Position numbers and translations under genes: made by a program. Positions 59,382-63,304 of a DNA stretch of 64,000 nucleotides are shown in pieces; the stretch's first letter is position 1; each line of letters begins with the position of its first letter. The stretch lies in assembly GCF_007856155.1 (NCBI RefSeq), contig NZ_CP042266.1, positions 2,232,001-2,296,000 on the forward strand, in the 5' to 3' direction. Source of the DNA: Streptomyces qinzhouensis (GTDB lineage: Bacteria > Actinomycetota > Actinomycetes > Streptomycetales > Streptomycetaceae). Below the pieces are notes generated by a model, which made no database searches, was not told the origin of the DNA, and worked only from the letters and a program-made list of their open reading frames with translations.

Positions 59382-59524
59382 CTTTTCGTACGACGACACC
59401 CTCCGCGCCTCCGCACGCCCGGGCCATCCGGGTGACGGCCGGGGTTGGCGGGTCCGGGGCATGGACATCGTTCCCCTGCTGCCGGGAGAACCCGGCCCTT
59501 CACCGCAGACCAGGAGGTTTCCCC

Positions 59525-59929
59525 ATGCGCCGTATCGCCATCGCCGCCGCCGCCGCTGTAGCGCTCACCGCGGGACTCGCCGCCACGCCGTCCGCCACCG
59601 CCACGACCGCTCCGGCGAAGACGTCCGCCGCGGCGGCGGCCGCGCTCGTGCACTTCTCGGGCTCCAACTGTCCGTCCAACAGCCTCTGTCTCTACCGGGA
59701 CACCAACTTCAACGGCGGCGGGATCGCCATCCAGAGGGGTGACAGCATCGGCTACCTCGGGGACTACGGCTTCAACGATCAGATGTCGTCGTGGTCCAAC
59801 GACTCCGGCACCACCTGTTACTGGTGGGTGGACGCCTACAAGGGGGGCGCCATCCACGACATGCGGAACGGCTACCGGGTGAACCTCCCCGGGAACGAGA
59901 ACGACACCGCGTCATCGGTGCAGTGCTGA
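59525..59929 (+). CDS. secreted peptidase inhibitor family I36-like protein
   Basis: 134 residues. The ATG follows AGGAGG. A signal peptide (MRRIAIAAAAAVALTAGLAA, cleavage near TPSATA) precedes a small domain with four cysteines (NCPSN, LCLYR, TCYWW, VQC) and YRDTNFNGGGIAIQRGDSIG, resembling the beta/gamma-crystallin-like I36 inhibitors such as SMPI of Streptomyces. The target protease, if any, is not known. Confidence 0.85.
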   Translation: MRRIAIAAAAAVALTAGLAATPSATATTAPAKTSAAAAAALVHFSGSNCPSNSLCLYRDTNFNGGGIAIQRGDSIGYLGDYGFNDQMSSWSNDSGTTCYWWVDAYKGGAIHDMRNGYRVNLPGNENDTASSVQC

Positions 59930-60008: not shown

Positions 60009-62102
60009 TTACGGGGCCGGGTCGGCCCGGCCCGAGCGGCCGAGCCGCTTCAGGGTCCAGTCGCCGCCGTCCGGGTCCAGCCGGGCACCGGTCCGTTTGA
60101 AGAGGTACTCGGCGCGTTCGTAGCTCAGGCGCGCCCGGCCCGTCGCCGGATCGACGGCGGCCGCGTCCCGGGCGGGCCCGGCGCGGCGCCCGGTGAGGAA
60201 GACCGGGCCTCCGGTGCGGTCGCCGACCAGTTCGGCGAGCAGCCGCGCGGCCCCCGACCGCCAGCTGATCCGGTGACGCCCTGAGCGGGCCGTGCGGGCT
60301 CTGCGGTCTTTGGGCTCCAGGTCGGCCACATCGAGCGCGAGTACGGCGGTGACCGGCGCCCCCGACTCGTACAGCAGCCGCCACAGGGTCCGTTCGCGCA
60401 GCGGGAGGTCCGTACGGTCCCAGAGCGTGCCGAGCGCCGCCGGGGCGATCGGGCGGACGGCGGACGGTGCGCCGGAGCGCCTCGGCGGGCCCTCGGCCAC
60501 GGCCGGGTCCAGCGGCACCCAGGCGGCGAAGGAGCGGAACGCCGAGCGGTGGCGGTTCCAGGTGGCGGGGGCGGCCGTGGACCAGGCGCCGTCGAAGGCC
60601 CGGGCCACGGTCTCCGGGGTGAGACCGGCGAGGGGGAAACGGTCCCCGAGGGTACGGCGCAGCCGGGTCAGGGTCTGGGCGTAGGAGCGCACGCTCGCGG
60701 GGTCGAGACCGCCGTGGGCGAGAAAGGCCTCGGCGGCGGCGGCGAGACCGGATACGGCGCCGGTGGCACCGTCCGGGGGCGCGGTATGGACGCTCGCCAG
60801 GGCCGCGGCGTCCACGCGGCGGAGCAGAAAGGCCCGCTCGGCGCTGTTCCCGGTGAGGGCGGCGGCCCGTTCGAACTCCGGTCGGGCCTCGTCGTAGCGG
60901 CCGAGCCGGGCCAGTAGATCGCCCCGGACGCCGGGCAGCAGATGGTAGTCGCGCAGGGCGGGGTCGGCGGCCAGTCCGTCGACGAGGGCGAGCCCGGCCT
61001 CCGGACCGTGGGCATGGCCGACGGCGACGGCCCGGTTGAGCCGGACGACCGGGGTGGGCAGCAGCCGGACCAGTGACTCGTACAGTCCGGCGATGCCCGC
61101 CCAGTCGGTGGCGGCGGCGGTGGGCGCCTGGGCGTGGGTGACGGCGATCGCGGCCTGGAGGATGTACGGTCCCGGCGGTCCGCCGGCCGTGCGCGCGGTG
61201 TCCCGGGCGCGGAGCATCGAGACGAAGCCGCGCCGGATCAGCAGCGGGTCCCAGCGGCCGCGGTTCTGCTCGTGCAGCGGGACGGGCTCACCGCAGGGGC
61301 CGGTGCGGGCGCCGGCCCGGGATTCCTGAATCTCCATCAGGGCGACCAGCCCGTGGACTTCGGGCTCGGCGGGGGCGAGGCCGGCCAGCAGCCTGCCGAG
61401 CCGGAGCGCTTCGAGGGTGAGCCCGGGGCGGAGCAGATCGTCGCCGCCGGTGGCCGTGTACCCCTCGTTGAAGATCAGATAGACGACCTCCAGTACGGAG
61501 GAGAGCCGTTCGGTCAGCTCGGCGCCCGGCGGCAGTTCGAAAGGGATCCGGGCCTCGGCGAGGGTGCGTTTGGCATCGGCGATCCGGCGGGCCACGACCG
61601 TCTCGGTGACCAGGAAGGCACGGGCGATCTCGGCGGCGGAGAGCCCGGCGACCAGCCGGAGGGTGAGGGCGGCCCGGGCGGCGGTGGACAGGACGGGATG
61701 GCAGGAGAGGAACATCAGCCTCAGGACGTCGTCCGGCCCGCCCGGCTCGCCGTCGTCCGGTGTTCCCGGGGCTCCTTCCGCGCCTTGGTACGCGGCGGAG
61801 CCCGGGGCCGTGTCCCGGCGCTGCCGCTCCCGGGCCTCGTGAGCGAGCTGCCCCTGTTTGTTCTCCAGGTTCCGGGCGCGGCGGATGGTGTCCACGGCCC
61901 GGCGCCTGGCGACGGCCATCAGCCAGGCACCCGGATTCTCCGGGACGCCCGAACCCGGCCACTGTTCGAGGGCGGCGACCAGTGCGTCCTGAGCCAGTTC
62001 CTCGGCCAGTCCGACGTCGTGGACGAGGCGGGTGAGAGCGGCGACGATCCGCGCGGACTCCTGTTTCCAGACCGCGCCCACGGCGCCCCGGACGTCCGTC
62101 AC
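60009..62102 (-). CDS. ECF42-like sigma factor fused to a degenerate tyrosine-recombinase-like domain
   Basis: 697 residues from GTG 62102 with GGAGGA upstream. Residues 10-80 are sigma region 2 (GLAEELAQDALVAALEQWP, NPGAWLMAVARRRAVDTIRR). Residues 125-185 are region 4 (AALTLRLVAGLSAAEIARAF, VTETVVARRIADAKRTLAEA). Residues 190-435 are the TPR-like extension of the ECF42 type (YLIFNEGYTATGGDDL; RLNRAVAVGHAHGPEAGLAL). ECF42 proteins normally end about here. Residues 455-530 resemble the core-binding domain of a tyrosine recombinase (GLDPASVRSYAQTLTRLRRT; TWNRHRSAFRSFAAW), and 553-691 its catalytic fold (LWRLLYESGAPVTAVLALDV; GPVFLTGRRAGP; RARLSYERAEYLFKR; DWTLKRLGRSG). Box I Arg and the HxLRH motif are lost and the protein stops before any Tyr nucleophile. 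Transcription of YCII/DGPF-linked genes is the family role; the added domain's role is unknown. Confidence 0.88.
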   Translation of the reverse strand: MTDVRGAVGAVWKQESARIVAALTRLVHDVGLAEELAQDALVAALEQWPGSGVPENPGAWLMAVARRRAVDTIRRARNLENKQGQLAHEARERQRRDTAPGSAAYQGAEGAPGTPDDGEPGGPDDVLRLMFLSCHPVLSTAARAALTLRLVAGLSAAEIARAFLVTETVVARRIADAKRTLAEARIPFELPPGAELTERLSSVLEVVYLIFNEGYTATGGDDLLRPGLTLEALRLGRLLAGLAPAEPEVHGLVALMEIQESRAGARTGPCGEPVPLHEQNRGRWDPLLIRRGFVSMLRARDTARTAGGPPGPYILQAAIAVTHAQAPTAAATDWAGIAGLYESLVRLLPTPVVRLNRAVAVGHAHGPEAGLALVDGLAADPALRDYHLLPGVRGDLLARLGRYDEARPEFERAAALTGNSAERAFLLRRVDAAALASVHTAPPDGATGAVSGLAAAAEAFLAHGGLDPASVRSYAQTLTRLRRTLGDRFPLAGLTPETVARAFDGAWSTAAPATWNRHRSAFRSFAAWVPLDPAVAEGPPRRSGAPSAVRPIAPAALGTLWDRTDLPLRERTLWRLLYESGAPVTAVLALDVADLEPKDRRARTARSGRHRISWRSGAARLLAELVGDRTGGPVFLTGRRAGPARDAAAVDPATGRARLSYERAEYLFKRTGARLDPDGGDWTLKRLGRSGRADPAP

Positions 62103-62139: not shown

Positions 62140-62469
62140 TCAGTTGCTGAAGACCTCCTGGATCACGCTCTCGCCGTCCCCGACGATCCGGCGGAAGCGG
62201 CGGCCCAGCTCGATCGCCTCGTCCTGGTCACGGGCCTCGATCAGGGCGAAGCCCACGACCGCTTCCTTGGCCTCGGTGAAGGGGCCGTCGGTGACGGTGA
62301 TCTCGTCGCCGGAGGAGATGAGCCGGACGCCCTGCGGCGCGAGTCCGCCGGTGGCGAGGAGCGCCCCGGAGGCGGTCAACTCCTCGATGAACGCGGCCAT
62401 CTCCGTGAACAGCTTCTCGTCCGGGGCGGCGGGCACGGCGGGGGCCTTGGCCATCATCAGGTATCGCAT
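62140..62469 (-). CDS. YCII-related (DGPF) domain protein
   Basis: 109 residues: MRYLMMAKAPAVPAAPDEKL, then TVTDGPFTEAKEAVVGFALI carrying the DGPF signature, ending VIQEVFSN. A small dimeric ferredoxin-like fold. DGPF genes accompany ECF42 sigma factors in many actinomycetes and are their known targets. It is 37 bp upstream of the sigma gene and surely in one operon. Catalytic activity is not established. Confidence 0.92.
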   Translation of the reverse strand: MRYLMMAKAPAVPAAPDEKLFTEMAAFIEELTASGALLATGGLAPQGVRLISSGDEITVTDGPFTEAKEAVVGFALIEARDQDEAIELGRRFRRIVGDGESVIQEVFSN

Positions 62470-62521: not shown

Positions 62522-62584
62522 GTGTCGAACAGCCTATGCGACAGGGAACGGCGGCCATTCCCTGTCGTATCGACCGTTCGACGC
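62522..62584. promoter_or_regulatory. 27-bp imperfect palindrome in the divergent DGPF/DUF998 promoter
   Basis: Arms 62522-62548 and 62558-62584 match at 22 of 27 positions around a 9-nt centre. The inner 10 bp, CGACAGGGAA/TTCCCTGTCG, are exact. Read outward, each side gives TTCCCTGTCG-yAT-n-TTCGAC. It lies between the sigma operon and the divergent DUF998 gene, so it could be paired promoter elements or an operator. Confidence 0.7.
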
Positions 62585-62635: not shown

Positions 62636-63304
62636 ATGAGCGTCACCACCACCGCCGTCTCCCCTGCTGTCACCTCCGGGCAGCGCACCCGGGCCCTGCT
62701 CGCCGCCGGTGCCGCCGCCGGTCCGCTGTGGGCGGTCGTCTCGCTCGTCCAGGCCGCGGCCCGGGACGGCTACGACATCACCCGGCATCCCCTGAGCATG
62801 CTCTCCAACGGCTCCCCCGGCTGGATCCAGATCACCAACTTCGTGGTCGCGGGTCTGCTGGCGATCGCCGGTTCGGCCGGGCTGCGGCGGGCGCTGCGCG
62901 GTGCGCCCGGAGGCATCTGGGCGCCCCGGCTGCTGCTCGTCCACGGCATCGGGATGGTCCTGGCCGGAGTCTTCGTGGTGGACGCGGGGGACGGCTTCGC
63001 CGGTACGCCCACCGGGACGCCGGAGACGATCTCGGCGGCGAGCGCCGCCCATCTGGCCGCCGGTTCGCTGTCGTTCATCGCCCTGATCGCCGCGCTCTAT
63101 GTGCTGGGCCGGTCCTTCTCCCGCGCCGGTGAGCGGGGCCTCGCCATCGCCTCCCGCGCCGCCGGTACGGCGCTGCTGATCGGCAACGTCTGGGCGTCGG
63201 GCGGCGGCACCGGGGGCTCCCTCGCCATCGCCGTCGGCGGGATCACCGCGATGGTGTGGGCGTCGGCGATCGCCGGCCGGCTGTCCCGCCGGGTCACCGT
63301 CTGA
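62636..63304 (+). CDS. DUF998 membrane protein
   Basis: 222 residues from ATG 62636 (GAAAGGA upstream). About six hydrophobic segments: LLAAGAAAGPLWAVVSLVQA, ITNFVVAGLLAIAGSAGLRR, LLLVHGIGMVLAGVFVVDAG, AGSLSFIALIAALYVLGRSF, AAGTALLIGNVWASGG. The block DITRHPLSMLSNGSPGWIQ is typical of the family. It is divergent from the sigma operon and shares its control region, so it is a candidate target. Function unknown. Confidence 0.85.
   Translation: MSVTTTAVSPAVTSGQRTRALLAAGAAAGPLWAVVSLVQAAARDGYDITRHPLSMLSNGSPGWIQITNFVVAGLLAIAGSAGLRRALRGAPGGIWAPRLLLVHGIGMVLAGVFVVDAGDGFAGTPTGTPETISAASAAHLAAGSLSFIALIAALYVLGRSFSRAGERGLAIASRAAGTALLIGNVWASGGGTGGSLAIAVGGITAMVWASAIAGRLSRRVTV

Follow-up and report, generated by a model that had tools for sequence, protein, structure and literature searches.

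Why would a bacterial sigma factor carry the fold of a site-specific recombinase? The question is raised by a gene of Streptomyces qinzhouensis that lies in the 64-kb (64,000-nucleotide) stretch of DNA analyzed here, hereafter the window, and whose product begins as an ECF42 sigma factor and ends in a tyrosine recombinase-like domain. Sigma factors of the σ70 family read promoters with regions 2 and 4 (σ2 and σ4). Comparison of this gene with its relatives makes it quite likely, in our judgment, that an ECF42 sigma factor captured a site-specific tyrosine recombinase, which became domesticated and replaced σ4 as the reader of the −35 region.

Architecture of the fusion protein

An earlier note on this DNA had assigned the N-terminal ~435 residues to the ECF42 plan, and the domain matches bear this out: σ2, σ4, and DUF6596 all score above their Pfam cut-offs, the protein can be aligned to unfused ECF42 proteins until about residue 430, and the neighboring gene is of the YCII/DGPF type. 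The match to TPR_2 (E 4.3e-4) falls below the cut-off of that family, and the full-length structural model predicts paired helices at residues 312–440, in keeping with a TPR extension. The −10 element is presumably read by σ2.

For the last ~240 residues, which the same note had read as a tyrosine-recombinase fold, the structure model and the fold matches agree on a core-binding domain followed by a catalytic fold. The Phage_int_SAM_1 profile remains sub-threshold in the protein of the window and matches 38 of the 43 members of A3. The full-length model has a pTM of 0.60 and does not fix the position of the recombinase domain relative to the rest of the protein. Coordinates are collected in Table 1. 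At about 59510–59929 on the forward strand, the window also encodes what we take to be a small secreted-looking protein with the look of a crystallin or I36 inhibitor. Elsewhere in the same genome, ECF42 genes of equal score and inverse orientation lie at both chromosome ends (G000:C1:6955-8184 and 8138301-8139530), probably within terminal inverted repeats.

Table 1 Features of the fusion locus, in window positions
Feature	Position	Strand	Basis or remark
Sigma-recombinase fusion gene	60009..62102	-	697 aa, GTG start, single frame
Sigma region 2, residues about 10-78	61869..62075	-	Sigma70_r2, E 2.8e-9
Sigma region 4, residues about 125-190	61533..61730	-	Sigma70_r4_2, E 6.1e-7
σ4 recognition helix, residues 166-178	61569..61607	-	weakly conserved across the fused family
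DUF6596 and TPR extension, ECF42-typical, residues 195-430	60813..61520	-	DUF6596, E 8.6e-32
Core-binding (SAM-like) domain, tyrosine-recombinase type, residues about 453-540	60483..60746	-	model and fold matches
Catalytic-domain fold, tyrosine-recombinase type, without active site, ending at box II, residues about 555-687	60042..60440	-	model and fold matches
YCII (DGPF-type) gene, upstream in the operon	62140..62469	-	PF03795, E 1.7e-11
Divergent DUF998 membrane-protein gene, predicted target	62636..63304	+	PF06197, E 8.8e-31
Operon-proximal arm TTCCCTGTCGCAT of the inverted repeat	62536..62548	-	motif match
Distal arm ATACGACAGGGAA, inverted	62558..62570	-	spacer 62549-62557
-10-like TTCGAC of the YCII-sigma operon	62524..62529	-	CGAC 8 bp after arm
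Mirror -10-like CGACG of the divergent promoter	62579..62583	+	8 bp beyond the other arm

Distribution of the fusion and loss of the active site

The fusion is not confined to this genome. Long ECF42 frames with the recombinase domain occur in 10 of 199 Streptomyces genomes, in a search that scored the 13–17 best candidates of each genome or, if fewer existed, every one of them, and a scan of 84,980 species genomes from GTDB yielded 192 confirmed stretches. Among the best 80 of these 192 loci, 73 are single-frame fusions, three (L058, L067, and L077) contain a whole or partial ECF42 gene and the domain in a broken arrangement, and four are stand-alone recombinases of Actinomadura. The earlier observation is thus borne out, and its scope is wider than the note had indicated. 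The survey of ECF42 homologs that the same note had called for brought to light 85 distinct single-frame fusions across the Actinomycetes, a count that leaves out eight duplicates as well as L058, L067, L077, and L126, which are not single-frame fusions. At least seven families are represented: Streptomycetaceae, Streptosporangiaceae, Pseudonocardiaceae, Micromonosporaceae, Thermomonosporaceae, Nocardiopsidaceae, and Nocardiaceae.

In a quick tree that included 42 of the 85 fused and 30 unfused sequences, all fused sigma parts fell on one side of a single branch (SH-aLRT 98), a topology that suggests one origin of the fusion. The earliest branch inside the fused clade consists of Microbispora and kin together with the truncated L109. 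Outside the clade, L240 (in genome G259) is an orphan remnant of the core-binding part, without an ECF42 motif, YCII motif, or arm (see below) within 7 kb. Weak domain matches in long frames of G104, G121, G186, and G238 had neither an ECF42 or YCII motif nor an arm in the 5 kb searched.

The claim that the active site is dead proved correct for the family as a whole. The nucleophile Tyr and the β Lys are retained in none of the 85 fusions, the box I Arg in two, and the box II His in nine; in 12 stand-alone relatives the corresponding numbers are 12, 12, 11, and 12. Retention at 53 other conserved positions, defined on the stand-alone set and located before box II, averages 88% in the fusions, although two motifs of the domain, RLSYERAE and TWNRHR, served as search patterns in the genome scan, and the conservation of these two therefore partly reflects selection of the loci. 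As the note had observed of the chain ending shortly after its WTL motif, the catalytic fold stops at box II here, and most fusions have nothing beyond that point. In Microbispora and kin, by contrast, the recombinase is almost full-length and HxxR is present, with Phe or Leu at the position of the Tyr. The alignments thus reveal no complete R-K-HxxR-H/W-Y set in the fused domain, and strand-exchange activity is expected to be absent.

A palindrome shared by two divergent promoters

The promoter of the YCII-sigma operon in the fused loci contains an inverted repeat resembling a recombination core site, ATGTGACAGGGAA-N8/9-TTCCCTGTCACAT, located upstream of the YCII gene and flanked by CGAC about 8 bp outside each arm. 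The palindrome of the window (62536–62570) has three mismatches in total; its operon carries the ECF42 −10 (T/A)TCGAC found in close unfused relatives, with A rather than G as the next base (CGACA, not CGACG). Across 77 fused loci (76 from GTDB and that of the window), 65 have the inverted repeat, with a spacer of 8 bp in 52, 9 bp in 10, 10 bp in two, and 12 bp in one. At least one arm with up to two mismatches is found in 75 of the 77; the exceptions are L077 and L081, the latter a fused gene for which the fetched locus contains no YCII motif either. The 12 loci that lack the inverted repeat comprise, besides these two, some with a single arm, two with distant arms (L090 and L108), and three with direct repeats (L103, L109, and L110). 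Columns of the arm carry 1.1–2.0 bits; within the eight-column spacer the middle four carry 0.04–0.5 bits and the outer ones 0.8–1.6 bits, so that the repeat extends about 15 bp per side. The palindrome of L205 (G004) does not adjoin the YCII gene and is found almost 3 kb upstream of it.

The spacing between arm and −10 element is nearly fixed, with CGAC 8–9 bp past the operon-side arm in 67 of 76 loci, and a mirrored −10 is present on the divergent side in 57 of the 65 inverted-repeat loci. The divergent gene has a DUF998 motif at 48 of the 65, and 47 of these also have the mirrored −10; at six others its motif is DUF1801-like, always together with the mirrored element, which seven of the remaining 11 lack. 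These gene labels in the survey are presumptive, assigned by motif and not by Pfam.

Site and fusion also occur together across genomes. The pattern TTCCCTGTCRCAT-N8/9-CGACG is present in every one of the 14 later-branching genomes with the fusion and in none of 490 others, the 504 distinct genomes being those of the genus, order, and class sets (199, 197, and 148 genomes, drawn as for the domain search, to which the same limit of candidates per genome applied); the 490 include the early-branch fused genomes G382, G449, and G498, whose arms are direct repeats. By set, the pattern occurs in 10 of 199, 5 of 197, and 3 of 148 genomes, and the reversed pattern in none of any set. The match sits at the sigma operon in 13 of the 14; in the remaining one, the genome of the window, it instead precedes a second DUF998 gene, because the sigma operon reads CGACA. 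The inverted repeat alone, sought in the 199 genus genomes, was recovered in nine of the ten fused genomes and in no other (reversed control, one genome), the tenth, G035, having one perfect arm in its place. Since site and gene adjoin, this co-occurrence partly reflects shared inheritance, and what is informative is how unfused operons differ: the arm core is missing in 60 of 60 distinct ECF42 loci without the fusion, of which 32 were searched over 1.1–1.5 kb upstream and 30 in full, with two common to both sets.

Searching the 8.1-Mb genome for TTCCCTGTCRCAT with up to one mismatch gave five places, versus two for the reversed pattern. Two are the arms of the palindrome. Among the three others, the sole exact arm (L214, G000:C1:3575911-3575936) has CGACG at 8 bp and precedes the second DUF998 gene, which starts 85 nt after the first base of the arm; the other arm is degenerate there, and the two remaining matches have no arm-to-CGACG spacing of this 8-bp kind. 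From these sequence features, the second DUF998 gene is predicted to be a second target of the fusion protein.

The −35 region and the recognition helix of σ4

All 30 close unfused ECF42 loci share the promoter TGTCGA-N17-CGACG, in which TGTCGA begins 23 bp before CGACG. Fused promoters keep the same −10, and the arm spans the former TGTCGA region. Upstream of the window operon there is no TGTCGA-type promoter match, the arm standing in its place; three inverted-repeat loci (L049, L098, and L116) have a loose match of this type elsewhere upstream.

The σ4 recognition helix has changed as well. Its identity (residues 166–178) relative to that of residues 195–428 is 0.69 in the fused family, or 0.72 for Streptomyces fusions only, versus 1.10, 1.14, and 1.23 in three unfused sets. 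The undivided helix identities are 0.86, 0.59, and 0.81 in the unfused sets and 0.54 in the fused one (0.59 for fused Streptomyces). The fused value is near the 0.59 of the class-wide unfused set, whose members are much more diverged, and these two sets differ only in the ratio. Identity in σ2 is similar: 0.81 for the fused family versus 0.84 for the close unfused set. The helix of the window protein reads VARRIADAK versus AQR[IV]VRAK in close unfused relatives. This weakening could stem from a σ4 that loosely reads a new sequence.

The early branch retains an older arrangement. L103, L109, and L110 retain the AQR[IV]VRAK helix and a promoter of the TGTCGA type (GGTCGA in L103), with the arms as direct repeats upstream; the V-R of this helix is seen in none of the other 69 fused loci with an aligned helix (L050, L058, L067, and L074 have none aligned). 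L200, L201, and L202 likewise combine a canonical helix with direct-repeat arms, the canonical promoter pattern being found upstream in L201 and not in L200 or L202, and in L203, the nearest unfused sister, promoter and helix are canonical and the arm is absent. Judged by these sequences, the early branch is a natural control for the −35 swap.

The explanation that best fits these observations is that the recombinase domain, having lost its catalytic residues and mostly everything after box II, kept its site specificity. We infer that it binds the 13-bp arms TTCCCTGTCACAT of the palindrome shared by the YCII-sigma operon promoter and the divergent DUF998 promoter. Recognition of the −35 region would, in the derived proteins, have passed from σ4 to the recombinase domain, while σ2 would still read the −10 element TTCGACG at 8–9 bp from the arm; by clamping the arm, the domain would present σ2 to the −10 at a set distance, such that promoter choice would need the arm and not σ4. 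Two protomers on two arms would drive divergent transcription, and the TPR part presumably carries the signal. We regard it as fairly probable that −35 recognition was handed from σ4 to a recombinase that reads its old core site as a symmetric divergent promoter, with intermediates still living; the DNA site of the recombinase appears to have come to occupy half of the sigma factor's own promoter.

One may instead postulate that the arms are an operator, and that the domain either represses by occluding the −35 region or tethers the sigma factor close to its own promoter, the sigma parts alone selecting the promoter. We hold this to be rather unlikely, although the arm does overlie the −35 region, and a dead recombinase fold that acts as a DNA-binding repressor has been described in MrpR (in the portion of PMC10516654 consulted), with SroF named a repressor in its PDB title. 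The early-branch fusions, in which the arms lie outside the canonical core promoter, also make a separate operator role possible. An occluding operator, however, leaves unexplained why TGTCGA was lost and the recognition helix is unconserved, and why the 8–9 bp between arm and −10 is nearly fixed, even at the remote DUF998 site.

Stand-alone recombinases that carry the arms

The same arms are found upstream of the four stand-alone recombinases of Actinomadura (L105, L106, L112, and L113), with a 7-bp spacer and mismatches of 0+3, 1+0, 0+3, and 0+2, respectively; L113 has an additional exact arm. L105 and L112, which are near copies of each other, have a second arm that matches at only 10 of 13 positions. 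The arms lie within about 350 bp of the gene in L105, L106, and L112 and about 1.6 kb upstream in L113, where a frame that by eye resembles pentapeptide repeats occurs between site and gene. An exact arm appeared in none of 800 Markov-resampled loci. The 12.7-kb loci of these four recombinases contain no ECF42, YCII, or DUF998 motif, which indicates that the arms travel with the recombinase rather than the sigma factor. A quick domain tree places the four with the fused clade (98), and 12 rows (two identical) of arm-less stand-alone relatives fall apart from it. Three of the four retain all catalytic residues; L106 lacks the box I Arg. No arm with up to two mismatches was detected at the stand-alone recombinases L018–L036, L126, and L128–L130 (in about 1.5 kb of flank or less) or at L204 and L207–L210, as would be expected of more distant recombinases if each subfamily has its own site.

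These loci bear on a further possibility, namely that the C-terminal domain serves regulation or partner binding, like other ECF extensions, and that the palindrome is merely the sigma factor's own −35 element in two divergent promoters. The site is indeed a divergent promoter, and ECF42 extensions are thought to act via protein interaction, according to the part of PMC8999054 consulted. We nevertheless find this quite improbable: the arms recur near four recombinases that have no ECF42, YCII, or DUF998 motif in their 12.7-kb loci, they stand apart from the canonical promoter in the early-branch fusions, and the σ4 helix that would have to read them is not conserved. The earlier note had proposed a dead recombinase fold kept as a DNA-binding or partner-binding module that steers or restrains the sigma factor. 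The fold, the loss of the active site, and the mostly purifying selection described below speak for a module retained to steer it; since the palindrome is linked to stand-alone recombinases, a sequence-specific DNA-binding role is favored over partner binding, and restraint of the sigma factor is possible but not favored.

Selection on the recombinase domain

A domain without catalysis might simply be a decaying remnant. In 16 close pairs, median dN/dS is 0.08 for σ2, 0.27 for σ4, 0.16 for DUF6596 and TPR, 0.27 for the core-binding domain, and 0.29 for the catalytic fold. Both recombinase subdomains thus resemble σ4; the extremes are 1.26 for the core-binding domain, in one pair, and a maximum of 0.45 for the catalytic fold. 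These ratios suggest that the recombinase domain is mostly under purifying selection. That the domain is a vestigial appendage is therefore very improbable: the active site and the C-terminal end are gone, and G259 retains only a remnant of the domain, but medians of 0.27–0.29 with non-catalytic positions kept, a spread over seven families from one origin, and a conserved site all run counter to decay. The chance that a sequencing or assembly error merged two genes is negligible given 85 distinct single-frame fusions across the Actinomycetes, including those in 10 of 199 genus genomes and in 73 of the best 80 of 192 GTDB loci.

Implications and relation to known systems

If −35 recognition did pass to the recombinase domain, promoter recognition would be modular and replaceable, a recombination core site could turn into a promoter element, and bacteria would have a new way to select genes for reading. 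The three stages (no fusion, fusion with the old promoter, and fusion with the new one) form a ready set of intermediates for studying the rewiring of a regulatory code, and an orthogonal sigma-promoter pair for synthetic biology may perhaps be had as well. Even if only the operator reading were true, the sigma architecture would be new. No sigma-recombinase fusion was apparent in the titles and abstract openings of the literature searched, which included a minority of subscription papers. In the parts consulted, the main text of the ECF reviews PMC8999054 and PMC8103513 mentions ECF42 with TPR and contains neither 'integrase' nor 'recombinase', and PMC10880074 contains both 'ECF42' and 'integrase'.

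The fusion shares with ECF42 proteins such as Sven_0747 of Streptomyces venezuelae its σ2, σ4, DUF6596, TPR extension, YCII/DGPF neighbor, and −10 TTCGACG, and departs from them in a recombinase fold of ~240 residues, an arm in place of the −35 TGTCGA, and an unconserved σ4 helix. With tyrosine recombinases such as XerD, lambda Int, and Cre it has the core-binding and catalytic folds in common; unlike them, it lacks the nucleophile and the β Lys, mostly ends at box II, and is joined to a sigma factor. Its loci carry the same 13-bp arms as the stand-alone L105, L106, L112, and L113 of Actinomadura, though mostly with a spacer of 8–9 bp versus 7 bp. ECF41 proteins with a fused SnoaL_2 domain, to judge from the title of a cited paper, also have a C-terminal extension that modulates promoter recognition, but the extra domain of the fusion derives from a recombinase and has a predicted DNA site of its own. 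A further parallel is with the phage repressors MrpR (YopR) and SroF, in which a recombinase fold serves transcription control (for SroF, according to its PDB titles); as in the MrpR type, the fused domain is a recombinase fold without catalysis, for which 62536–62570 is the predicted binding site. MrpR and SroF are separate phage proteins, however, whereas here the fold lies within the sigma factor itself and probably helps it choose its promoter.
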